Of a DNA stretch of 64,000 nt, positions 43,078 through 63,843 are shown piece by piece. A model generated the notes under the pieces. That model saw nothing but the letters and a program-made list of their open reading frames with translations. It did not search any database and was not told the origin of the DNA. This DNA is from Oceaniferula marina (GTDB taxonomy: Bacteria; Verrucomicrobiota; Verrucomicrobiia; Verrucomicrobiales; Akkermansiaceae): contig NZ_JACBAZ010000007.1 of the NCBI RefSeq assembly GCF_013391475.1, positions 1 through 64,000 of the forward strand, read 5' to 3'. Made by a program: the position numbers and the translations under genes. Numbering within the stretch: position 1 is the first letter of the stretch; every line of letters starts with the position of its first letter.

Positions 43078-44646
43078 TTACTTGCCCTTGCTGCTAGCTG
43101 CGTCAGTCATTTTCTGCATGACTTGATCGATCGAGAAGCTGGCTGGTTTCATGCGTGGTGGGTATTCCTTGAATGTGCCCAAGAACTTACCAACATATTG
43201 CTGAGCGGGAACTAAGAGGAAAATGCGATCCATCATCCAATCATAGTAAGTGTTGGAGGTGAATTGAGCTCGCTCATAGGGGTCACGGCGGAGGTTAAAG
43301 ATCAAAGGGACGCGAAGTTCTACCCATGGATCAATCCATACGCGTAGTCCACCTTTCGTCTTTTGCTCAAGGAAAACCATTTTCCAATCGGCGTAGCGTA
43401 AGGCTGTGAGTTCGCCGGTATCTGAGAAATAGAAAACTTCTTTACGGGGGCTATCCACATTATCGGGATCTTTAAGATGCTCAGTGATGTTGTATCCATC
43501 GAGGTGGATTTTGTAGTCACGGTTGAGTGCTGATGACTTGTAGCCATCGAGTAGATCTTCTTTGATGTCGGTCTTGCCTGCAGCAGCAAGGAAGGTAGGC
43601 ATCATGTCCATGTGGTGAACCACTCCGTTGGATACTGAACCTGGCTGTACCACACCGGGCCAGCGAATCAGGCAAGGAACTCTCCATCCACCTTCGCCGT
43701 TACTATTTTTTTCATTCTCGAAAGGTGAAGATGCGGCATCGGGCCAAGAGTTCATATGAGGACCATTGTCGGTTGAATACATGACGATGGTATTGTCGGC
43801 GATTCCGAGATCGTCGAGTAGCTTCATGAACACCCCAATATGGATGTCATGTTCGATCATTCCCGCTTGGTATTCGTCCAGATGCTTGCCGGCAATTTCG
43901 TCGGCTTGCTTGCGCATTTCACTTTTGACATGGGTGCGGAAGTGCATCCGAGTACCGTTCCACCAGCAGAACCATGGCTTGCCTGATTTGTGTGAGCGTT
44001 GAATGAAGTCGACCGCTGCAGCGACAGTTTCATCATCGACTGTTTCCTGACGCTTTTTAGTCAGCGGACCAGTGTCTTGGATTTTTCCATCAGCTGAGGA
44101 TTTGATGACACCGCGGGGGCCGAATTTCTTTTTGAATTCTGGGTCGCGAGGGTAGTCTTCATTCTCTGGCTCTTCTTCTGCATTGAGGTGGTAAAGGTTA
44201 CCCAAAAATTCATCAAATCCATGATTGGTTGGAAGCATGTGATCCTGGTCACCGAAATGGTTTTTACCAAATTGACCGGTGACATAACCTTGGTCTTTCA
44301 AAAGTACTGCTATGGTAGGATCCAGAACATTGATTCCTTTGGGTGCTCCGGGTAGTCCCACTTTCGACAGGCCCGTTCTGTAAACGCTTTGGCCTAACAT
44401 GAATGAAGCTCGTCCAGCGGTGCAGGACTGCTCTCCGTAATAGTCAGTGAAAAGGATTCCCTCCTTGGCTATCCGGTCAATGTTAGGGGTTTTATAGCCC
44501 ATCATGCCGCGGGTATAAGCGCTTATGTTGGACTGACCGATGTCATCCCCCCAGATGACGAGGATGTTTGGTTTTTTCTCTGCAGCAACAGCACTTAAGC
44601 AAGTTATTAAGCCGGTTACCAGAGTTGTGCATAGTGTACGTTTCAT
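43078..44646 (-). CDS. Secreted sulfatase with CxAxR-type active-site motif
   Basis: A 522-residue protein with a signal peptide (~1-21). The metal DD is in IWGDDIGQSN (34-35). The formylglycine site is C75 in SCTAGRASFM, i.e. C-x-A-x-R rather than C-x-P-x-R; this variant is known among arylsulfatases and is accepted by some maturation systems. GQFGKNHFGD replaces the usual GKWHLG box, keeping Lys and His with Asn for Trp. YSTDNGPHMNSWPDA is the second metal site. The layout (NISAYTRGMMGYKTPNIDRIA) is that of the arylsulfatase group common on marine genomes. Transcribed alone. Confidence 0.94.
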   Translation of the reverse strand: MKRTLCTTLVTGLITCLSAVAAEKKPNILVIWGDDIGQSNISAYTRGMMGYKTPNIDRIAKEGILFTDYYGEQSCTAGRASFMLGQSVYRTGLSKVGLPGAPKGINVLDPTIAVLLKDQGYVTGQFGKNHFGDQDHMLPTNHGFDEFLGNLYHLNAEEEPENEDYPRDPEFKKKFGPRGVIKSSADGKIQDTGPLTKKRQETVDDETVAAAVDFIQRSHKSGKPWFCWWNGTRMHFRTHVKSEMRKQADEIAGKHLDEYQAGMIEHDIHIGVFMKLLDDLGIADNTIVMYSTDNGPHMNSWPDAASSPFENEKNSNGEGGWRVPCLIRWPGVVQPGSVSNGVVHHMDMMPTFLAAAGKTDIKEDLLDGYKSSALNRDYKIHLDGYNITEHLKDPDNVDSPRKEVFYFSDTGELTALRYADWKMVFLEQKTKGGLRVWIDPWVELRVPLIFNLRRDPYERAQFTSNTYYDWMMDRIFLLVPAQQYVGKFLGTFKEYPPRMKPASFSIDQVMQKMTDAASSKGK

Positions 44647-44777
44647 GGTTCTAATTGTTGGGCCGGATTGAGTTTTTTTAATCCGGTATCAATGAGAATA
44701 GAGTGACAACGCAAAAATGTCTACTCGGGTAACTCCCAGTTCAGCACAGTACTTTTACTAGGGGTTGGTGGGGTTGC

Positions 44778-45416
44778 TTATAAGTCAAGGTTGGTCTCCG
44801 AGGGTTGATTTTTTTGAGCTGCAAAATGAATGAGCTCGGCTGACTTTGTTAGTCCCAGTTTTTTCATCGCCTGGTATTTGTGATATTCGACAGTGCGAGG
44901 TGAAATGTTCAGTTGGGCACCAATTTCTTTGGCTATCAGGCCTTGAGCAAGCAACTGGATGATTTCCCGTTGTCTTTCGGTGATACGGTTGGTCTCGTTC
45001 GTCTGGTCTGACCATTCGAGTATGTCTCGTGTTAATTCTGATGGGATGTAAACCTTCCCGTGGAGAACCTCGCCTAGTAATGTTAGTAGTTTTTCAGGGG
45101 CCGTGTGTTTCAGAATATAGGCAGAAGCTCCAGCCTTGATGGCTGCTGATGCATATTCGGGCTCCATGTGCATTGTGAGTAGGATGAATTTAGCCCGACA
45201 CTGGCGATTGCGAAGTGTCCGTATTGCCGTAATCCCATTCGTCTTGGGCATGGATAGATCGGACACAACCAAATCAGGCTGATGTTTGAGGGCTAAATCG
45301 ATCAGTTCGTTGCCGTCTGTTGCCCGGGCCACGATTGTATAATGGGGATCGAGCAGGCTGTGTAACCCATTCAGAAAGATTTGATGGTCATCCGCTATGA
45401 TGATCGTTGGTTTCAT
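44778..45416 (-). CDS. NarL/FixJ-type response regulator
   Basis: A 212-residue protein. The receiver domain (~1-120) has IIADDHQIFLNGL (acidic pocket DD), VVSDLSMPKTNG (phospho-acceptor Asp ~55), LLTMHMEPEYASAAIKAGASAYILK (switch Thr and Lys). The C-terminal LuxR helix-turn-helix (~145-205) has ITERQREIIQLLAQGLIAKEIGAQLNISPRTVEYHKYQAMKKLG. The upstream kinase gene overlaps the start by four bases (ATGA), so the two form one translationally coupled two-component system. Target genes are unknown; none of the neighbours is clearly regulated. Confidence 0.95.
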   Translation of the reverse strand: MKPTIIIADDHQIFLNGLHSLLDPHYTIVARATDGNELIDLALKHQPDLVVSDLSMPKTNGITAIRTLRNRQCRAKFILLTMHMEPEYASAAIKAGASAYILKHTAPEKLLTLLGEVLHGKVYIPSELTRDILEWSDQTNETNRITERQREIIQLLAQGLIAKEIGAQLNISPRTVEYHKYQAMKKLGLTKSAELIHFAAQKNQPSETNLDL

Positions 45417-46981
45417 TTCAGGTGAGGGTTGTGGCGCTTTGTGAGTGGGAGTTCGATTTTTAACATGGTCCCTTGAAGGGGTTTTGAATGAATATTCAGA
45501 TGGCCATTACTCAAACGAACTCTCTCAGAGATACTGACTAATCCTAGCGACTCTTGGTTTTTTGCCGATTTCAGGTCAAAGCCGATGCCGTCATCTTTGA
45601 TTGTTAGTGTTGCTGATCGATTGTTATAGATGAGTTCGATGTGAACTTTCGATGCTTCGGCGTGACGGTGAATGTTCGTGAGGGCTTCTTGCAGCACTCG
45701 GTATGCGCAAAGCGCTTGTTCCTGGTCGAGTTGATTGGAGCTTGGGTGGAGCAATAGATGGACAGGTATTCCCGTTCGCTTTTTAAAGCGTAAGCATTTG
45801 GATCGGATGGCGGAGTTAAGCCCGAGATCCTCAAGGATTTTGGGATGAAGCTGGCGGCTGAGTTCTTGAGTGTCTACAGCAAGTTCCCCGAGCTTTTGCC
45901 CGAGGCTCAGCAGTTCCCTTTTTGTTGCTTGTTGCGATAACGAGCTTTGTTGGGCTATCCTCTTAATATCAAGGGCCATGGCGGCCAGTCTTTGGGTGAC
46001 ATCATCATGGAGTTCGCGAGCCAGATAGCGTTTTTCGCTCTCACGTGTGTCGACGAGTTTTTTGCCGAGTCTTTCCAAATCTCGTTGGATTTGATGTCGC
46101 TGATCGGCTTCTTGTTTTAGCTGCTTATTGCGAGTGTGTAAAAGTGTTTCAGACTGTTTGCGTTGTGTGACATCTGAAATGATACCGACGAAATGGCTGA
46201 GTTCATGATGATCATCAAAGACGGGAGCAATTTGTAGATAGTTCCAGAAGGTGGAGCCATCTTTCCGATAGTTGAGAAGCTCGCCATGATAAGGTTTCGC
46301 GGCATTGACGGCCTGGCGGATCAGCAGTAGTTGTTCAAGGGAGGTTTCAGGGCCTTGGAGAAACCGACAATTTTTACCCACTGTATCTGGAGAGTCGTAG
46401 CCGGTAATGGTGGTGAACTGTTTATTGTGATAGAGGATGGGCATCCCCTTAGCCTTGGCATCGACGATGACACAGCCGTCTCTCATTGTTTCAATCGCCA
46501 GAGAGCGCAGGCGGTTGGATTCTTCGGTTCTACGCAGTTGGGTGATGTCCCGTGCGGTGCCCCACAATCGAATCAACTGGTTGTTTTCAATCAGAGGAAT
46601 AAAATTGTTGAGCACTCGGATTTCCCGGCCGTCTTTATCTTGCTCGATGGTTTCAAAATCAACCACATCAAACTTTGCCCGGACCGCCCGAAGCAGCGTT
46701 GGCATCGTCGAGGGTAGTTCCTCGGGCATGATTTTTTCAAGCCGTTGGCCATTCATTTCAGCGACGCTAAGCCCGTAAAGTTTAGCAAAGGACTCATTCA
46801 CGTCTGTGAGGTAGGCGTGCTTGAAGAGATGCCGAGCTTGCTCCATCTCGTCGGTGTCGAGCTGAAGTGGTTGATCAAGTTCTAGGCACCAAATTTGTTC
46901 GGTGCTGTTTTTAAGAAAGTAAGCGAGATCTTCTTCTGAATGGAGAAGGGAAGCTTTGATGTTTGATGTCGGTGAGTCCAT
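45413..46981 (-). CDS. Soluble PAS-LOV sensor histidine kinase (HisKA_3/NarX type)
   Basis: A 522-residue cytoplasmic kinase with no membrane segment. PAS 1 is at ~55-150. PAS 2 (~160-282) has the LOV signature: ITGYDSPDTVGKNCRFLQG with the photo-adduct Cys at 205, LNYRKDGSTFWNYLQIAPV and FVGIISDVTQ. The flavin-contacting Gln usually found in the last strand (VGIQ.DVT) is Ile here. A coiled-coil linker precedes the dimerisation box ELHDDVTQRLAAMALDIKRI (phospho-His ~325), and the HATPase has EALTNIHRHAEASKVHIEL and IKDDGIGFD. It phosphorylates the NarL-type regulator encoded just downstream. Blue-light or redox sensing is inferred from the LOV Cys. Confidence 0.9.
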   Translation of the reverse strand: MDSPTSNIKASLLHSEEDLAYFLKNSTEQIWCLELDQPLQLDTDEMEQARHLFKHAYLTDVNESFAKLYGLSVAEMNGQRLEKIMPEELPSTMPTLLRAVRAKFDVVDFETIEQDKDGREIRVLNNFIPLIENNQLIRLWGTARDITQLRRTEESNRLRSLAIETMRDGCVIVDAKAKGMPILYHNKQFTTITGYDSPDTVGKNCRFLQGPETSLEQLLLIRQAVNAAKPYHGELLNYRKDGSTFWNYLQIAPVFDDHHELSHFVGIISDVTQRKQSETLLHTRNKQLKQEADQRHQIQRDLERLGKKLVDTRESEKRYLARELHDDVTQRLAAMALDIKRIAQQSSLSQQATKRELLSLGQKLGELAVDTQELSRQLHPKILEDLGLNSAIRSKCLRFKKRTGIPVHLLLHPSSNQLDQEQALCAYRVLQEALTNIHRHAEASKVHIELIYNNRSATLTIKDDGIGFDLKSAKNQESLGLVSISERVRLSNGHLNIHSKPLQGTMLKIELPLTKRHNPHLK

Positions 46982-47007: not shown

Positions 47008-47424
47008 TCACTCATCCGAGGACGATTGAGGCGCCGTGGTTTGATCTTCGACATCCAGATGACGTAAGATGTTCGGATCTTCTTCGGAGAAGGATAGCTC
47101 CACGGCTTTAATCGCCATGGCAACAACAATGCCAGTCAGTAGAAGACCATTGATGCCAATGCAGATGGAGACGATGCGGGCTGGCCAGGTCTCGGGTGAG
47201 AGATCGCCATAGCCAACGGTCAATGATGTGATAAATGCCAGATATTGTCCTTCAATGATGGGAATGCTATCGAATAGTGAGATAAGTAAGCCCCCACCGA
47301 TGATATTGGCCAGTAGGATCAAAAGAACATTCCGCGTTTCTTTCGCCATAAACCACAGGCAGCCGATGAGCCGGCGAGCACGGAGGTGATCGATGGGAGG
47401 GGTGACCTTTTTTGATGAGGGCAT
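47008..47424 (-). CDS. Small two-TM potassium channel
   Basis: A 138-residue membrane protein: TM1 (NVLLILLANIIGGGLLISLF, ~32-51), pore helix and selectivity filter TVGYGD (~69-74), TM2 (IVSICIGINGLLLTGIVVAMAI, ~84-105), and a short acidic cytoplasmic tail without an RCK domain. This is the Ion_trans_2/KcsA-like minimal pore. It lies 14 bases after the antiporter gene on the same strand and is very probably co-transcribed with it. Confidence 0.92.
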   Translation of the reverse strand: MPSSKKVTPPIDHLRARRLIGCLWFMAKETRNVLLILLANIIGGGLLISLFDSIPIIEGQYLAFITSLTVGYGDLSPETWPARIVSICIGINGLLLTGIVVAMAIKAVELSFSEEDPNILRHLDVEDQTTAPQSSSDE

Positions 47425-47438
47425 TGTGAGGAGGAGGG

Positions 47439-49112
47439 TTAAAGAGCCATGATAATCGTGCCGGCAAATGTGAGTAAGACATTGGCAAAGGTGTAGGTGC
47501 CGGCGTAGCCAAGGGCTGGGATTTCGCTTTTTGCGGCATCCGTGATGACGTTGAGTGAGGGGGTGCTGGTCATGGCTCCGGTGATGGAGCCGAGTAAGAG
47601 GGCGGGGTTCATGTTCAGGACCTTTTTGCCAAAGAAATACCCGACAAAGACGGGGAGCAAGGTGACAACCATTCCTCCTAAAAGAAGGGGGATGCCAGCC
47701 GACATTAAGCCCTCCACGATACCGCCGCCAGCATTAAGCCCGACTCCAGCCATGAACATGACCAGCCCGAACTCCATGAGGATATTGCGGGCTGCTGGTG
47801 GGACGCCACCAAAGGATGGGTTGATCGATCGGATAAACCCGAAAACAATGCCGAGCAGCAGAAGCCCTCCGGCGCTGCCCAGGCCGATGGATACCCCCCC
47901 AAGTTTAAGCATGATCATGCCGATGAGTAAGCCGCCACCGATGCCGAAGGCAAAACTTAGGAGATCGGTTTGGGTTTCCTCGGCTTCGATGCGTCCTATT
48001 TTTTCGGCAAGCGCTTCGAGTCTGCTTGATTCCCCGGTGATGTAGAGGCGGTCACCTTTGTTGGTGGTGATCATGTTGTCGACGGGTAGATCGATGGAGG
48101 CGCGTTTGATGCCTCGAACATAGCAGCCGAAATCTGCGGTGATTGCGAGTTCAGAGAGTGTTTTGCCAACGGCCTCCTGGCGGATGACAACGATTTCTTT
48201 GGTGATGATGTCGTAGTTGAGTAACTCTGGGTCGAGTACTTCAACACCCGCTTCCTCTTTCCGGCGTTCGTGTTCATAGAGGCTGCCTATCACAGAAACG
48301 ACATCCCCTTTTTCAAGCACTGTGTCATCATGAATAGACAGAATTTTTCCTTGGCGGCGCATTTTCAGAGGCGTTGACTTTTTGCCAGCGGCAGCGCGGA
48401 GCACTTCGATGGTTTTTCCCTCCATGGCCTCGGGGATTTGATAGGCACGAATCAGTGGTACATGAGCGCTGTCATGCGCCAGCTTTTTCTTGGCGCTGAA
48501 GCCTCGTTCGTCGGCCAGTTTTTTTGCTTCTTCCGGCAGATCTATTTTTAAAATGAGTGGTAAATAGCGGATGAAAACGATCAGGCCGATGGTTCCAAAG
48601 ATGTAGGTGATGGCATAACCCACTGAGACGTTTTGCAGTGCTTTTTCAGGGGTCATTCCCTCCGGTATATTGGCCAAGCCGCTGCGCACTGCATCCTGGG
48701 CTCCGACAAGTGTCGGGGTGCTGGTGAGCGATCCGGCCAAGAGTCCGGCATTCAGCCCGTAATCAAGACCGATGATACGGGCGATGATCATCGCTGCACC
48801 AAATGCACTGGCTGCAACGACAACAGCCAAGGCTATATACTTGGCTCCATCTATTTTGAAGACACTGAAGAAAGTGGGGCCAGCTTGCAGACCCACGGCA
48901 AAGATAAAAATAGTAAAGCCAAAGGTGCCGAGAATGGGTTGGGATTCGAACCCGAAATGACCGAAAAGCAGACCAACCAGAAGAACGCCTGTGGTTGATC
49001 CTAGTTCAATGCTTCCAATTTTGAGGCGACCGAGGAGTAGTCCGAATGCGACGACCGAAAAGATCATCAAGGTCATGTTTTTGTTAAATAACTCGTAGAA
49101 GTTGATTTCCAT
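47439..49112 (-). CDS. AAE-family (aspartate:alanine exchanger-like, YidE/YbjL) transporter with two TrkA-C domains
   Basis: A 557-residue inner-membrane protein. Two homologous membrane halves each have about five helices: residues ~10-190 (LLVGLLFGHFGFESQPILGTFGFTIFIFAVGLQAGP, LLAGSLTSTPTLVGAQDA) and ~385-557 (GLVMFMAGVGLNAGG, LLLGSITGAMTSTPSLNVI). The G(A/S)xTSTP(S/T)L motif occurs in both halves. Between them are two TrkA-C (RCK-C) domains at ~215-275 and ~305-365 (EIVVIRQEAVGKTLSELAI). AAE proteins exchange dicarboxylates or amino acids; the substrate here is unknown. It leads an operon with a K+ channel gene. Confidence 0.92.
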   Translation of the reverse strand: MEINFYELFNKNMTLMIFSVVAFGLLLGRLKIGSIELGSTTGVLLVGLLFGHFGFESQPILGTFGFTIFIFAVGLQAGPTFFSVFKIDGAKYIALAVVVAASAFGAAMIIARIIGLDYGLNAGLLAGSLTSTPTLVGAQDAVRSGLANIPEGMTPEKALQNVSVGYAITYIFGTIGLIVFIRYLPLILKIDLPEEAKKLADERGFSAKKKLAHDSAHVPLIRAYQIPEAMEGKTIEVLRAAAGKKSTPLKMRRQGKILSIHDDTVLEKGDVVSVIGSLYEHERRKEEAGVEVLDPELLNYDIITKEIVVIRQEAVGKTLSELAITADFGCYVRGIKRASIDLPVDNMITTNKGDRLYITGESSRLEALAEKIGRIEAEETQTDLLSFAFGIGGGLLIGMIMLKLGGVSIGLGSAGGLLLLGIVFGFIRSINPSFGGVPPAARNILMEFGLVMFMAGVGLNAGGGIVEGLMSAGIPLLLGGMVVTLLPVFVGYFFGKKVLNMNPALLLGSITGAMTSTPSLNVITDAAKSEIPALGYAGTYTFANVLLTFAGTIIMAL

Positions 49113-49133: not shown

Positions 49134-49166
49134 TAAAAAGAGCCTTTACCGTGGGTAAAGGCTCTT
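49134..49166 (-). terminator. Terminator of the RND efflux operon
   Basis: Perfect 13-bp stem AAGAGCCTTTACC / GGTAAAGGCTCTT with loop GTG, followed on the minus strand by TTTTTATTC. Confidence 0.93.
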
Positions 49167-53648: not shown

Positions 53649-55478
53649 TCAGGGTTTCACGTGTTTCTTTTTCGCTAGATGGAGATGTAAAATGCGGGTC
53701 ATTTCACGATGCGCTTCCGGGTGCAACTGGGCATCGTGCAGTGATGGAACCAGTATTTCAGAGTCGGCCCCTTTCAGGTGGGAGCTCCAATACGGCACTA
53801 CACCGTCAGAGGATTTTTGGGGGTGATTTTGGTGCAGGCCACGGTTGCCCATGATCGAATGGTAGGTAATCCGTTTGTTGAATGGTTGTTTGCTGATCAA
53901 GGTCAGGGCCGGATTGTGAGACTTGAGGTAATTGACGGAGTTGGGAGATTCGGCGTTGCCTACCAATGCCCGCCCAAATTCAGTCATATTGTCACTGAAC
54001 ACATCTAGTTGCAGACTGCTCATGCTTTGTGGAAGTTTCACCAACGATGATCCCACTTGCCCGATCCAGTTGTCTGCTATGCCGCTTCCAAGGTGAGGCG
54101 TGGCAACAAAAATCGTGCGTTCGATTTGTTTGAGTGTTGGATGTTCGATTAGGATCTTGGTTTGTCCGTAAGCCGAGTCCTTACTGTAGCCTGTTGGCTT
54201 TTCGATATAAAGCAGGTCGAGTAGTTTGTTATCGAAAGTGCGACTTTGCATCGAGGATAACAAGCCTCCCATGCTGTGCCCGATGAGGACGGTGCGATCT
54301 AGCTGGTTTCCAGGGTGGTGGTCCTGGTTTTGGTAAAAATCAATGAGGGTTCTTCGGAATTGAGCTCCGGAGATGATGGGGTTTTGGCCGGTTTGGTAGA
54401 GGTAGTAGTAGAACTGATAGTTCTCTCGAATGAGAGGATCGGCCATCAGGTGGTTGGTCGCAGTGGTCCAGGTGGAGGGTTGTGAGATCAGCCCGTGGAC
54501 AAAAATAACCGGGATTTTGTTTGGATCCTGGAGTCCAATGGCAAATAACCCCATTTGAGCATTTGCTTGTTCGGGATTCAAGGCGAGGGATAACCCCATG
54601 AAGGATGATTCGGTTGAAGCAACGGCCGCAATCGGGGCCGAGTAGTCGGCAGAAAGCAATCTGCTTGTCCCGGTAATATGGGAGTATTGGGTCTGGAGTA
54701 AGTCCGTGATGGTCAGTCGAGGTTTTCCAGGGGCTGGAACATCAACGGTTATGTTGATCGGGGTGTCGAGACCGTTGGTCGGGATGTATGGATTCGATTG
54801 GAGCCGATGTGGGGTCCGGCTTTGGCGGCCAACGGCGGCGGCTCCTAGCCCCATTTGGCGATGATGGTATTTTCCGACATTGCCGTAGCTGAGGGTGTCC
54901 AAGGGTAAGATAGAATCAAACCGATCCGGGTGCAGGCTGTGCGGTGTAGATGTATTGATTTGAATTTGTTTATCTCCAACTTGGATAGGCGATGCCTTGT
55001 TTTGAGATTTTACGGCACGGCAGGCAAACATCGCGATTTGTCCGACCGAGTGGATGTAGAGTTGGTGGGCCAGAAGCTTGCGTTTGTGGCGTGAATCAAG
55101 ATAACCGGATGCGGGGTAGGGCGTTGTTCGGATGACTGGCCAGAGAAACTCGACGGCTTGGAGGTAGTGGAGGGTGGATTGTTCAGGAGACTTGGTCCGT
55201 GATTTTTTAGCCAAATGAACCGCTTCTTCGGCCAGGGCAATATGCTCGGAGTCGCTTTGTGGTGTTTGGTCTTTACGTGCTCGGATGTGCCTGAGGGTTT
55301 GACGGGAGGTTCTCGATATCCAAGCACGGTTGAGTGTCGATCCCGAAGAATCATGATAAGCTTGGCTCCGTCCAGAGCTCTTAAAATACGGTTTTGGCAC
55401 GCATGATTCCACCAGCAAGCAGAGGGGGAGAATGATGAGGGTCAGATGATAGATCGTTATTTTTCTGAGAGTAGCCAT
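53649..55478 (-). CDS. Alpha/beta-hydrolase lipoprotein (lipase/esterase-like)
   Basis: About 609 residues from ATG 55478 (MATLRKITIYHL), chosen because it begins a lipoprotein signal with lipobox LVESC (Cys ~26); the frame extends to 55643. After the Cys comes PKPYFKSSG, then a helical region (~75-160) and a poorly conserved middle. The alpha/beta-hydrolase domain (~360-600) has IPVIFVHGLISQPSTW (oxyanion HG), RTVLIGHSMGGLLSSM (nucleophile elbow GHSMG), TIFVATPHLGSGIAD, SSDGVVPYWSSHL (Asp region) and HPEAHREMTRILHLHL (His). It probably cleaves ester bonds of lipids at the envelope. A truncated paralogue start is found at 28469. Confidence 0.8.
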   Translation of the reverse strand: MATLRKITIYHLTLIILPLCLLVESCVPKPYFKSSGRSQAYHDSSGSTLNRAWISRTSRQTLRHIRARKDQTPQSDSEHIALAEEAVHLAKKSRTKSPEQSTLHYLQAVEFLWPVIRTTPYPASGYLDSRHKRKLLAHQLYIHSVGQIAMFACRAVKSQNKASPIQVGDKQIQINTSTPHSLHPDRFDSILPLDTLSYGNVGKYHHRQMGLGAAAVGRQSRTPHRLQSNPYIPTNGLDTPINITVDVPAPGKPRLTITDLLQTQYSHITGTSRLLSADYSAPIAAVASTESSFMGLSLALNPEQANAQMGLFAIGLQDPNKIPVIFVHGLISQPSTWTTATNHLMADPLIRENYQFYYYLYQTGQNPIISGAQFRRTLIDFYQNQDHHPGNQLDRTVLIGHSMGGLLSSMQSRTFDNKLLDLLYIEKPTGYSKDSAYGQTKILIEHPTLKQIERTIFVATPHLGSGIADNWIGQVGSSLVKLPQSMSSLQLDVFSDNMTEFGRALVGNAESPNSVNYLKSHNPALTLISKQPFNKRITYHSIMGNRGLHQNHPQKSSDGVVPYWSSHLKGADSEILVPSLHDAQLHPEAHREMTRILHLHLAKKKHVKP

Positions 55479-55974
55479 ACGAAGTCGCGGTCCAAAATAG
55501 ATCATGCCTCGTCTACCATTTGATGCAAGGGGATAAATGGGCCGGCTGCAGGGTTGTCCAGTTAGGAATGCCAGATCCTTGAAACCCGCCAGAGACACGC
55601 AACTCAGAACTTCGCTAATAAGAACGAACATGATACCCGCCATCGCTGAAGCTCTTCGCTTGCCGAGACTCTACTCGCAAAAAAAAAGCGTCTCCTCCGT
55701 GCCGGAGAGATACTGGGTATGAAACAAGTTGGATTCTGGTGCGCCTTCTGGCAGTTTGGGTTCCAAGTCGAAGGGGGCGCTTTTTCCATGCTACTGAAGC
55801 AATGACGCCGCTGAAGTGACGTAAGAAATACAAAAAGTAGCAAGATGACGAAGTGGCTGACGTAGATTGGCTGCGGCAGATGGTAATCAACGAGCTGTCA
55901 ACCCGACGGATTAGATGAAAGGTTGGGTTCGAATGGTTGGATCCAGAACGTCATTGAACCCTAAAAAATGAACC
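55479..55974. other. Intergenic region with probable dispersed repeat (55630-55830)
   Basis: No gene. The piece around 55634-55830 (CGCTGAAGCTCTTCGCTTGCC; hairpin CTCCTCCGTGCCGGAGAG) shows short matches to the element at 17680-17849 (CATCGCT..AGCT.TTCGCT.GCC; TGGATTCTGG), suggesting a dispersed non-coding repeat. The remainder up to 55974 probably carries the sulfatase promoter; no clear operator was found. Confidence 0.35.
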
Positions 55975-57456
55975 ATGAAATACAGCCTCTTTATTTTATT
56001 GATAAGTGCCACAGCTTTAGCGGCATCATGGAAACCCAATATCGTTTTCATTATGAGCGACGATCAAGGTTATGGCGATGTTTCTTGTTATGCCGAAGAC
56101 GCCAAGATCAAAACTCCGGCGATTGACAGCCTGGCGGCAGAAGGTATGCGTTTTACTGACGCTCATAGTGCCTCCTCGGTCTGCACTCCAACACGATATG
56201 GAGTGCTGACAGGCCGTTACCCTTGGCGAACCCGCTTGCAAAGTTTCGTGCTTCAGACCAAAGAGACCAAACGGGCAGACGGCTCTCTGAAAGTCGGTAC
56301 AGATCCTCTGATTGAGAAAGAGGTATTAACAGTGCCAGGATTTTTGAAACAGCATGGGTACAATACGGCCATGGTCGGCAAGTGGCATCTAGGTTTTCAA
56401 TACCGCTTAGCGAAGGGTAAAAAAATTGATAAAAATCACCAGCTCAAGAATGCCGTGCCAGTCGGCACCAAGGTCATCGATGGCCCCATTGAACGTGGCT
56501 TCGATCATTTTTGGGGATTTCATCATGCGGGCGAAATGCGCACCTGGATTGAACAGGATGTGGTGACGGAGAATTTTGACCACCCGAGCCAGATGCTGAA
56601 CCGCATTGCTGAGACCTCAGTCCAATACATCAAAAGCCAAACGAAGCAGGTGCCCTTTTTCCTGTATGTCCCCTTGAACTCACCACACGGCCCGACGGTT
56701 CCCAGCCAAGCATGGAAGGGTAAAAGTGATATCAACCCTTACGCTGATTTCGTGATGGAAACAGATGATGCGGTAGGCCGGATCCTTCAAGCTCTCGATG
56801 AAAAGGGAATGAAGGACAATACGATTGTTTTCTTTACCACGGATAACGGCTGTTCCCCCCATGCCAATATTCCGCAGTTGTTGAAGGCTGGTCACGATCC
56901 CTCCGCCGGGTTGCGCGGAACCAAAGCCGATATCTGGGAAGGTGGCCACCGTGTCCCTTATCTGGTCCGCTGGCCGGAGAATATTCAAGCAGGTGCCGTT
57001 TCCTCCGAGCCGATTTGCCATAACAACCTTCTAGCTACCTGTGCAGCTTTGCTTGACCAACCGTTACCAGTCGATGCAGGAGTCGATAGCTTTTCGATTT
57101 TGCCAGTGCTCAAGGGGGAAAAGCTGAGTGCCGCCACCCACCCGGTCATCATTCACGCTTCGGTCCAAGGCATGTTTGCCATCCGACAGGGAGATTGGAA
57201 ATACATTGCCTGCAAGAACTCCGGCGGTTGGAGTCGCGGCGGCGACAACAAACCCGCTCAGCTTTATCACATGAAGAAAGCCGTCGATGAACAGGTGAAC
57301 CTGATCGATTCGATGCCGGAAAAAGCCAAGGCGCTGCGGGCGCTGCTTGAGAAGTCGGTTGGCGACGGCTTCACGGTTCCCGGAAAAAAGGGCCGAAATG
57401 ATGTCGAGGTGGTGATCGATAAAAAAACAAAAAAGAAGCGCAAGAAACAAAAGTAA
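55975..57456 (+). CDS. Secreted sulfatase (arylsulfatase A-like)
   Basis: A 493-residue protein with a signal peptide (~1-17, TALAAS). DD is in FIMSDDQGYGDVSCYA (29-30). The formylglycine site is C70 in CTPTR. MVGKWHLGF and TTDNGCSPHANIPQLL are present, so all usual sulfatase landmarks are intact. The group resembles arylsulfatase A/cerebroside-type enzymes of marine bacteria acting on carbohydrate sulfates. Basic C-terminal tail KKKRKKQK. Stands alone on the plus strand; no co-transcribed partner. Confidence 0.95.
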   Translation: MKYSLFILLISATALAASWKPNIVFIMSDDQGYGDVSCYAEDAKIKTPAIDSLAAEGMRFTDAHSASSVCTPTRYGVLTGRYPWRTRLQSFVLQTKETKRADGSLKVGTDPLIEKEVLTVPGFLKQHGYNTAMVGKWHLGFQYRLAKGKKIDKNHQLKNAVPVGTKVIDGPIERGFDHFWGFHHAGEMRTWIEQDVVTENFDHPSQMLNRIAETSVQYIKSQTKQVPFFLYVPLNSPHGPTVPSQAWKGKSDINPYADFVMETDDAVGRILQALDEKGMKDNTIVFFTTDNGCSPHANIPQLLKAGHDPSAGLRGTKADIWEGGHRVPYLVRWPENIQAGAVSSEPICHNNLLATCAALLDQPLPVDAGVDSFSILPVLKGEKLSAATHPVIIHASVQGMFAIRQGDWKYIACKNSGGWSRGGDNKPAQLYHMKKAVDEQVNLIDSMPEKAKALRALLEKSVGDGFTVPGKKGRNDVEVVIDKKTKKKRKKQK

Positions 57457-61876: not shown

Positions 61877-62110
61877 GACGACTTCGATTCTGGGTTAAAT
61901 GCATGGGATGACCAGAGAAAAAGTGGATGAATTTTAGTATATTTTTGCGGTTTTTTGATGTTTTAGATTTTTCTCGCCAAGCGTAGTGGGGTGCATTAGG
62001 TTTAAACCTCATTTAATTATATTAGTTTTTCAAATGAATCGACAGACGATTTGTTAATTTGGAGCCATGATCCAAATATATGATCCAAATATCGACCCCG
62101 CTATCTATAC

Positions 62111-62146
62111 AACCCATACAACCTATTCAACCTATTCAACCTATTC
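62111..62146. repeat. 9-bp tandem repeat (AACCTATTC) just before a sulfatase start
   Basis: Three perfect copies (62120-62146) and one degenerate copy (62111-62119) end six bases before ATG 62152. They read as Ile-Gln-Pro if the longer frame is used. Possible replication-slippage site in a leader. Confidence 0.7.
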
Positions 62147-62151
62147 AAACA

Positions 62152-63843
62152 ATGAAACAGAAACCAATAAAAACATGGAGTCAACTTGGCCTTATGGCCC
62201 TGTTTGCTGGAACCTTACCTGCGACAGCAGCTGAATTAATTCACGATGCTGATCATTATATTCTCAAGGCTCAGCATGGTGAGCAGTGGGCGAAGGATGA
62301 TGCCGCTGTGAATGCCAGGCTCGAGGAATTTAAAAAGAAAAACGGTGGGAAATCACCGAACATTCTTTATATTCTGATTGATGACATGGGCTATGGTGAC
62401 ATGGGCATCCCGGAACTGAATGGTCTGCGGGGTTATGAGACGCCTAATGTGAACAAGTTTTCGGACGAGTCGATGCGTCTCAACCGGATGTATACCGAGC
62501 CTTCCTGCACGCCTACTCGCTGTGCCTTTATGACCGGTCGTCAGCCTCATCGCTACAACATGGGGGATACGGCGGTCGATATTGCCGGCTTTGGACTTCC
62601 CGCCAAGGAAAAAACCTTGCCCGAGGTACTCTCAGAAGCGGGTTACAATACCACACACATTGGTAAATGGCATATGGGCGATATCAAAGAGTCTTGGCCT
62701 CACAACCAAGGCTTTGATTATGCTGCATTTCCGATTCACCAGCAAGGGCAGTTGACGGTTTTCAACGATGATGCCGCCAAGGAAGGTGTGGCTGTCTCAA
62801 TTGGGCCAGGTCAGTATAATGATCGATTCACCAAGGACAAATGGTTCCGTCCTAATCCTGCTGCGATGGTGGTGGGCTGTGAAGCCACCAAAGGCGGTAC
62901 CGTGCGCGAAGTGCACATGAAGCCGGGTGAACGCTGGACAGAAAAGAAATACGAGGAAATGAATCAACGCTATCAAGACCAGACGCTTGAACACCTGCGT
63001 AAGCTTGCCAAGCAGGATAAACCTTTCTTCTTGCAGTACTGGCCGCTGATTCCGCTCTCCAACCCTCGTGCCACCACGGATAACTACACCACTCCAAACG
63101 GCGGCACCTATGTTGAGAAAATGAAGAAGCTTGATGGTTGGATCGGTGATATCCTCGAGGAAGTCGATAAGCTTAAACTCGCTGAAAATACGATCGTTGT
63201 GATCATGGGTGACAATGGTCACTTTACTAAATACTCACCTGGGAGTGGCTACACGGCCATGATTTTCAAAGGTGGAAAAGCTGACACCACCGAAGGCGGT
63301 GTCCGTGTCGATGCCTTTGTCCGCTGGCCTGGCATGATTGAGAAAGATTCCATTGTGAATGACATTGTTCACGTGGCTGACCTTTACACCACACTTTCTG
63401 TGCTGGCAGGTGCCAAAGACAAGCTTCCTACCGATCGTTTGATCGATGGTGTTGACCAGTCTGCACTTCTGCTCGAAGGCGAAACCAAAGGGCGCCGTGA
63501 CACGGTCTTTATTTATTCGGGACCCAAAATGGAAGCTGTGGTGAAAGAGCATATCAAACTCAAGGTTCCCGGACCGGGAGAAAACCCGATTGGTGCCAAG
63601 TTCTATGACTTGCAGCGTGATACCCGTGAGGAATATCCAGTGTCCACGGAGATCGGTGCTTGGGGTGGAGCCGAAATGGTGCGTGTGATTCAGCGTCACA
63701 TGGTCATGAAGAAAAAGTATCCTGATACAGATGCTGACCGCGGTCTTCCTTATGATGGGATTGAAAACCTTCGCCCGGAAACCAAGGCTGCAGTGCAGGC
63801 CTTCCTGATTAAGAATAAGATACTGCTCGAGCAGAAGAAATAA
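62152..63843 (+). CDS. Secreted sulfatase with N-terminal extension
   Basis: A 563-residue protein from ATG 62152 (MKQKPIKTWSQ), which begins a good signal peptide ending at TLPATAA (~27). The frame is open to 62080 through the 9-bp repeat, and that start is rejected. A helical stretch (~28-66) is unusual before the core. DD is in LIDDMGYGD (77-78). The formylglycine site is C119 in CTPTR. HIGKWHMGD and IMGDNGHFTKYS (second metal site) follow. The group contains carbohydrate sulfatases of marine bacteria. A lipoprotein gene begins 36 bases downstream, so the two form an operon. Confidence 0.94.
   Translation: MKQKPIKTWSQLGLMALFAGTLPATAAELIHDADHYILKAQHGEQWAKDDAAVNARLEEFKKKNGGKSPNILYILIDDMGYGDMGIPELNGLRGYETPNVNKFSDESMRLNRMYTEPSCTPTRCAFMTGRQPHRYNMGDTAVDIAGFGLPAKEKTLPEVLSEAGYNTTHIGKWHMGDIKESWPHNQGFDYAAFPIHQQGQLTVFNDDAAKEGVAVSIGPGQYNDRFTKDKWFRPNPAAMVVGCEATKGGTVREVHMKPGERWTEKKYEEMNQRYQDQTLEHLRKLAKQDKPFFLQYWPLIPLSNPRATTDNYTTPNGGTYVEKMKKLDGWIGDILEEVDKLKLAENTIVVIMGDNGHFTKYSPGSGYTAMIFKGGKADTTEGGVRVDAFVRWPGMIEKDSIVNDIVHVADLYTTLSVLAGAKDKLPTDRLIDGVDQSALLLEGETKGRRDTVFIYSGPKMEAVVKEHIKLKVPGPGENPIGAKFYDLQRDTREEYPVSTEIGAWGGAEMVRVIQRHMVMKKKYPDTDADRGLPYDGIENLRPETKAAVQAFLIKNKILLEQKK

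Follow-up and report, generated by a model that had tools for sequence, protein, structure and literature searches.

A LOV histidine kinase without the active-site glutamine, and its possible control of a neighbouring sulfatase gene, in Oceaniferula marina

The window analysed here comprises positions 1 to 64,000 of contig NZ_JACBAZ010000007.1 of the verrucomicrobial bacterium Oceaniferula marina (assembly GCF_013391475.1). On its minus strand lie a gene for a sensor histidine kinase and, overlapping it by 4 base pairs (bp), the gene for a response regulator; the second PAS region of the kinase carries the marker residues of a LOV photosensor domain, with isoleucine at the site of the conserved glutamine. 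An earlier note, made from the sequence alone, had singled out this kinase and suggested that, together with a NarL-type regulator, it could give blue-light control in a glycan degrader. The features of the gene pair are as follows.

45413..46981, minus strand: sensor histidine kinase of 522 residues, in the order PAS1 - LOV - HisKA_3 - HATPase_c (open reading frame from ATG, Pfam, AlphaFold2, hydropathy)
46532..46936, minus strand: PAS1, residues ~16-150 (Pfam, BLAST to the related G021 protein at 41% over 150 residues, model)
46166..46483, minus strand: LOV core, residues ~167-272 (Pfam, PDB matches, AlphaFold2, marker residues)
46367..46369, minus strand: codon of Cys205, predicted to form the flavin adduct (motif and alignment)
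46178..46180, minus strand: codon of Ile268 (ATT), at the site of the LOV I-beta glutamine (alignment and codon reading)
45947..46168, minus strand: one continuous predicted helix, residues 272-345, leading from the LOV J-alpha into DHp (full-length model)
46007..46009, minus strand: codon of His325, the predicted phospho-acceptor, in HDDVTQ (HDxxxQ motif; sequence, Pfam)
44778..45416, minus strand: NarL/LuxR-type response regulator of 212 residues (open reading frame, Pfam; 4-bp overlap with the kinase gene)

The protein is a HisKA_3 histidine kinase, as both HisKA_3 (30.5 bits, cut-off 24) and HATPase_c (40.7 bits, cut-off 26.4) score above their cut-offs, and over the whole protein Pfam PAS_9 reaches 111 bits, split over two stretches. 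Its HDxxxQ motif is H325-DDVT-Q330, and such motifs have been described as phosphatase motifs (PMC6798134). The 19-residue hydropathy of the kinase peaks at only 0.55, against 2.52 for each of the neighbouring channel and AspT antiporter and 1.98 for the G021 kinase, which argues that it has no membrane segment and bears out the description of a soluble kinase in the earlier note. The regulator that the note had named as partner combines a receiver domain (Response_reg, 90.2 bits) with a GerE helix-turn-helix domain (62.1 bits) and is thus of the NarL/LuxR type. In the full-length model of the kinase (40 aligned rows, pLDDT 89.5, pTM 0.57) the helix of residues 272-345 runs unbroken from the LOV domain past His325; because of the pTM of 0.57, the placement of the domains in this model is uncertain.

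The hallmarks on which the photosensor claim was based, GKNCRFLQG with Cys205 and LNYRKDGSTFWN, are present in the second PAS region, on the minus strand, a detail absent from the note. When aligned to related PAS/LOV stretches, the nine published LOV marker positions read GNCRFLQNN, nine of nine, where the methods of PMC9098866 take at least eight of the nine (G, N, C, R, F, L, Q, N, N) to define a LOV domain. Alignment to known LOV proteins, which had been proposed as a check, points the same way: the best PDB sequence matches are LOV domains, headed by 9vf7 from Meiothermus ruber at E 1e-33, with 52% core identity. The AlphaFold2 model of the domain (22 aligned rows, pLDDT 94.8) has the LOV order of elements, and VIA-align superposes it on 9vf7_A (MrLOVe) with Z 22.2 and a root-mean-square deviation (rmsd) of 1.0 A over 141 residues, and on 8pky_B (CagFbFP Q148V) with Z 20.7 and an rmsd of 0.7 A over 105 residues. 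Foldseek likewise leads to LOV domains, and the closest solved examples lie at 0.6-1.0 A from the model. The curated NCBIfam models BluLightHisKinLov (NF052306) and YtvA_fam (NF052652) give 133.1 and 134.9 bits, under their cut-offs of 450 and 250. A chance motif was ruled out by the Pfam scores, the LOV matches in the PDB, the nine markers and the single occurrence in the genome, the LOV motif pattern having one match in 5.07 Mb and its reversed control none.

The strand-I-beta motif reads VGII (residues 265-268) as against VGIQ in LOV domains, so that the replacement of the glutamine by isoleucine had been read correctly. The codon of Ile268, ATT, differs from CAA and CAG at all three positions, and a single sequencing error as its source was therefore rejected. 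With Ile268 at the I-beta position the domain falls outside the canonical LOV domains; judged by its nine markers, the absent glutamine and a predicted LOV/PAS fold with flanking helices, it belongs to the published glutamine-less (LOV-delta-Q) class. The glutamine was formerly considered indispensable in such sensors. Natural receptors of this class have already been described, and isoleucine at this site is not by itself novel. According to Dietler et al. (2022, PMC9098866), the glutamine is generally dispensable, its replacement usually leaving a productive, often attenuated response, whereas histidine or proline in its place abolish signalling; about 350 natural glutamine-less receptors are counted there, predominantly with leucine or isoleucine, and the natural example tested, a methionine-bearing diguanylate cyclase, is repressed by blue light. 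In engineered LOV reporters, valine or lysine replacing the glutamine gives blue-shifted spectra (PMC8131319). From these published cases, Ile268 is taken to predict a working photoreceptor, probably slightly blue-shifted, the light response of which is possibly weaker. A claim that loss of the glutamine must alter signalling goes too far, since a productive, often weaker, response is usually kept (PMC9098866).

LOV proteins in Verrucomicrobia are counted as known (PMC4844311), and the distribution of the domain was surveyed at three levels. The exact motif pattern, which misses looser LOV-like domains, matches in only six of 260 genomes of the family and eight of 386 of the order, and an exact-motif LOV domain as a common trait of the group was rejected on these counts. 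On translation of the order-level matches, a whole LOV domain was found only in the source genome (G000) and in G376; the others comprise an 88-codon frame near a contig end (G293), four matches in frames of 27-76 codons, and one that misfits the peptide motif (G329, L147). A further family member (G251, L135) has a LOV-like domain with cysteine and glutamine and few other markers (GRKCSILQ). When the LOV domain was searched as protein against 387 genomes of the phylum, at least 149 gave a PAS-type match at E<=1e-8. Among the best-scoring 30 loci, from which markers were counted, ten domains including that of the kinase reach at least eight of nine; seven keep the glutamine and three lack it, namely the kinase (Ile), L155 (Leu) and L150 (Cys). 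Outside these 30 loci, L148 (Ala) and L011 (Thr) also have eight of nine markers without glutamine. By cysteine alone, 15 of 86 aligned PAS/LOV stretches qualify, nine of them with glutamine. Given such low counts, from loci that were not randomly drawn, no enrichment of glutamine-less domains is claimed.

Three of these relatives may be described individually. The top-scoring listed relative of the kinase LOV domain, L150 of G498, is LOV-like with eight of nine markers, alanine for the adduct cysteine and cysteine for the glutamine. L148 of G376 (L181:3983-6283) is a whole LOV domain with alanine at the glutamine site; the protein is a hybrid HisKA kinase that includes receiver domains. L155 of G432 (L182:6651-8771 and L182:3-947) has leucine there; its kinase too is a hybrid, and a photolyase-related gene (PF04244) is located about 6 kb away.

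The gene pair stands in a compact array, whose remaining features are these.

43078..44646, minus strand: sulfatase (PF00884), the probable target gene (Pfam, conserved linkage)
47008..47424, minus strand: small ion channel (Ion_trans_2, TVGYGD filter; Pfam), 26 bp upstream of the kinase gene
47439..49112, minus strand: AspT-type antiporter, probable first gene of the operon (Pfam), 14 bp upstream of the channel gene
49138..49166, minus strand: terminator-like hairpin of 13 pairs with a T run, separating the AspT operon from the RND pump gene (best of 16 sites)

The AspT, channel, kinase and regulator genes follow one another with gaps of 14, 26 and -4 bp; after the regulator comes a gap of 131 bp (44647-44777) and then the sulfatase gene. 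Terminator-like hairpins number 16 over the region, no excess over the 14.5 expected from shuffled sequence. GC content at third codon positions (GC3) is 0.50-0.51 for kinase, regulator and sulfatase, 0.52 for a HAD gene, 0.55 for the channel, 0.59 for AspT and 0.65 for the RND gene; these values are compatible with joint movement of the kinase, regulator and sulfatase genes, without proving it.

The association with a sulfatase recurs in a sister lineage. PAS1, for which sequence search at E<=1 returned no solved relative, has matches at E<=1e-3 in 24 of the 260 family genomes, the source genome included. Below 1e-30 only G021 and G284 join the source genome, the next match being at 4.6e-10, and none of 13 same-genus genomes matched. 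The G021 protein (1233 residues) consists of Reg_prop, Y_Y_Y, HisKA_3 and HATPase_c by Pfam and of PAS1 by BLAST; Reg_prop with Y_Y_Y is the sensor type of glycan-sensing hybrid systems. It is 41% identical to the kinase in PAS1 (150 residues) and 44% in the kinase region (248 residues), and between these two regions BLAST found nothing that corresponds to the LOV domain. The G021 genes run kinase, regulator, OprB porin, sulfatase, FGE-sulfatase, DUF1254. Its sulfatase is 57% identical to that of the window over 545 columns, and its regulator 47-48% (48% over 204 residues); in a search of the 260 family genomes with the regulator, G021 stood at 49% and no other match exceeded 36% among the matches listed. 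The helix-turn-helix recognition regions of the two regulators are nearly the same: LNISPRTVEYHKY.

The G284 protein (1389 residues) is built as Reg_prop - Y_Y_Y - PAS1 (by BLAST) - LOV-like PAS - HisKA - HATPase_c, and its LOV-like domain has lost the cysteine of GxNCRFLQ while keeping the glutamine in WIQSDIT. From a DVT/DIT motif to the phospho-histidine there are 55 residues in both the kinase and the G021 protein, the motif belonging to LOV in the former and to PAS1 in the latter; from the PAS1 DIT to the next DVT/DIT there are 125 residues in both the kinase and G284. These equal spacings make the LOV domain look like a module that sits between two linkers and can be exchanged. A 70-row tree places the LOV domain and its G284 counterpart in one group of LOV-type rows, with weak support (93/48 and 95/56) and a long G284 branch, and the equal spacing of 125 residues is a better argument for close kinship than the tree. 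Related alpha/beta-hydrolase-like genes occur in all three genomes, no more than about 7 kb from the kinase gene (window 53649-55643, L179:4153-6003, L180:8219-9436), those of the G021 and G284 loci being 29% and 36% identical to that of the window. A short frame between OprB and sulfatase in G021 (L179:13091-13658) resembles, by eye, a degenerate receiver domain.

Two alternatives concern the sensor itself. PAS1, for which we propose a role as second input beside LOV, might be the dominant sensor that LOV only tunes, seeing that PAS1 is conserved in G021 and G284 and LOV is absent or altered there. This we regard as improbable: PAS1 is without known ligand or solved relative, and in the model it is LOV that adjoins the kinase on one continuous helix. 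Alternatively, the LOV domain may still bind flavin but serve chiefly in redox or oxygen sensing, or act as a spacer, with light no longer the physiological signal. The lost glutamine, the G284 domain with glutamine and no cysteine, and the G498 domain without either would fit this idea, as would the descent of LOV domains from redox-active flavoproteins suggested by Dietler et al. (PMC9098866). It is nevertheless unlikely, for Cys205 and the other published markers are intact, which drift would not be expected to preserve, and glutamine-less LOV receptors still signal (PMC9098866). The kinase is very probably a blue-light sensor.

As to its output, the gap before the sulfatase gene contains two candidate elements.

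44748..44761, minus strand: candidate regulator site CTAGTAAAAGTACT, a dyad AGTA-N4-TACT (pattern search; sole CTRGTAAANNTACT match in the source genome)
44683..44697, minus strand: 15-bp block TCTCATTGATACCGG, present without mismatch ahead of the OprB porin gene of G021 (gap comparison)

The dyad between regulator and sulfatase, AGTAAAAGTACT, has counterparts in G021 before OprB (GGTAAATCTACT), between OprB and sulfatase (GGTAAAAGTACT), and about 310 bp before an open reading frame of 155 residues at the same locus (GGTAAATGTACT). The 18-kb G021 stretch has three RGTANNNNTACY matches against 0.12 expected, a number reached in none of 200 shuffles; the window also has three, against 0.62 expected, a count matched by 3 of 100 shuffles, and two of these lie inside long open reading frames. 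Its absence from the 9.7-kb G284 stretch says little, as only 0.04 were expected. The tighter CTRGTAAANNTACT, written from the four sites found, matches once in the source genome, three times in G021 and not at all in G284, always at these loci, with 8, 6 and 3 matches for the reversed controls. The 15-bp TCTCATTGATACCGG, the best of three pairwise gap comparisons, is common to the window gap and the gap before OprB in G021, which was equalled in none of 1000 Markov simulations and none of 1958 control tiles of the window; it has no other exact match in the three genomes, and three one-mismatch matches in G284. It follows the dyad by 51 bp in the window and by about 170 bp in G021, so that the two do not form one fixed unit. 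The third comparison, of the two G021 gaps, gave a 10-mer no better than chance (192 of 1000 simulations) and was rejected. In G021, the dyad and a second block, near CGTAACACTGCGAGTTCACG, are common to three upstream stretches of about 75 bp (L179 at 2941, 11415 and 13127); in the window gap the second block was not recognised.

The same data bear on whether the light-responsive system controls its own AspT antiporter-channel operon, or distant genes, instead of the sulfatase. The close spacing of the genes (14, 26 and -4 bp), together with the strong terminator-like hairpin upstream, suggests one operon from AspT to the regulator. No dyad match lies upstream of AspT, however, even with the loose pattern, and the sole genome-wide match to the tight one sits before the sulfatase; the 18-kb G021 stretch has a sulfatase in common with the window, and a search of it found no relative of AspT or of the channel; and the alike GC3 of kinase, regulator and sulfatase sets them apart from the channel, AspT and RND genes. 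Control of the antiporter operon or of distant genes is accordingly given a low probability, below that of a redox role for the LOV domain.

The reading preferred here, judged somewhat better than even, is that a glutamine-less LOV histidine kinase and its cognate NarL-type regulator respond to blue light, the regulator acting at the dyad to control the sulfatase. The LOV domain would bind flavin mononucleotide, and blue light would, as the intact marker residues suggest, produce the Cys205-flavin adduct. Without the glutamine, protonation of flavin N5 would reach the beta-sheet by another route, for instance through water, by analogy with published proposals for other glutamine-less LOV domains. 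The signal is then predicted to travel along the single continuous J-alpha/DHp helix and to shift the kinase/phosphatase balance at His325, HDxxxQ allowing both activities, with PAS1 giving a second input. The regulator would bind the dyad in the 131-bp gap and control the sulfatase gene, as the conserved linkage and the cis elements suggest. The pair may control the neighbouring sulfatase, and local control of the sulfatase, by blue light in this genome, is the likely output.

Several observations weigh against this reading. The pair probably shares an operon with a transporter and a channel, and these could be what it really controls; a promoter-like scan of the region found 4 sites, fewer than the 10.3 expected by chance. 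The G021 sister without LOV suggests an output independent of light, and the loss of the cysteine from the G284 domain implies that light sensing is not stable in the lineage. The pattern search adds only the absence of other sites, CTRGTAAANNTACT having been derived from those already found, and the distances of TCTCATTGATACCGG to the dyad and to the start codon differ between the two genomes; the block is moreover a best of three, and a shared 11-mer alone is modest evidence (10 of 1000 simulations, 35 of 1958 control tiles). Photolyase offers weak support, since it occurs in all five of the five genomes searched, the source genome and the LOV-less one included, which makes light exposure plausible for all and not special to O. 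marina. A rhodopsin search of the source genome found none, as did its control, so that it is uninformative.

A further step, which we put forward tentatively and hold to be somewhat doubtful, is that a glycan- or sulfate-related two-component system came to answer light when its sensor was exchanged, yielding blue-light control of the sulfatase. One set of parts, made up of PAS1, kinase, regulator and DNA site, would then answer a periplasmic propeller sensor in the sister lineage and a glutamine-less LOV domain here. Were this so, LOV domains of the lineage, having lost either the cysteine or the glutamine, would amount to an experiment of nature on which of the two is dispensable.

The sulfatase directly downstream, the conservation of that linkage in the LOV-less sister and the locus-specific dyad lend indirect support to the suggestion that blue light exerts control in a glycan degrader. 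A link between light and carbohydrate has precedent in Rhizobium, where a LOV kinase reportedly affects exopolysaccharide. A narrow search of titles and abstracts in the open-licence literature met no description of a link between a LOV or blue-light photoreceptor and a sulfatase, nor of the sulfatase output or the sensor exchange. What appears to be new here, from genome comparison, is the LOV-less G021 and cysteine-less G284 relatives and the conserved sulfatase linkage with its dyad and 15-bp block. If the preferred reading is right, the system would be a natural glutamine-less LOV kinase whose output can be read at a defined neighbouring promoter; glutamine-less signalling could be tested in a native system, by comparison with Ile268Gln, the sister that lacks LOV serving as control. 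Light would moreover be connected with sulfate removal in a bacterium for which the window alone contains several sulfatase genes, further ones lying at 55975-57456 and 62080-63843.

Among known systems, the closest solved relative by sequence and fold is MrLOV of Meiothermus ruber (Mrub_1259, PDB 9vf7/9vf8, annotated 'histidine kinase'), which shares the 52% core identity and an intact GxNCRFLQ but differs in keeping the glutamine, in VGIQ; a search of the open-licence literature found no paper on it. Variants of CagFbFP at position 148, Q148V among them (PDB 8pky and others), have an aliphatic residue at the same site on the same backbone; unlike the kinase domain they are engineered, with the cysteine also changed to alanine, and serve as fluorescent reporters rather than signalling proteins. 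Brucella LOV-HK and the engineered YF1 resemble the present kinase in linking LOV to a kinase through a helical linker; they belong to other kinase classes, have another domain order, and contain the glutamine. In YF1 this is Gln123 (PMC9098866). The published rule that ties LOV-kinase spacing to the sign of the light response likewise comes from YF1, of another kinase class. The natural LOV-delta-Q receptors are alike in having at least eight of nine markers and no active-site glutamine, with isoleucine among the commonest replacements, but the one tested is a GGDEF protein with methionine (PMC9098866), whereas in O. marina a HisKA_3 kinase serves as effector and the regulator is a protein of its own. 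Among the propeller-sensor kinases (Reg_prop plus Y_Y_Y), finally, the G021 sister shares PAS1, kinase, regulator and sulfatase, while the O. marina kinase, without propeller or membrane segment, has the LOV module.

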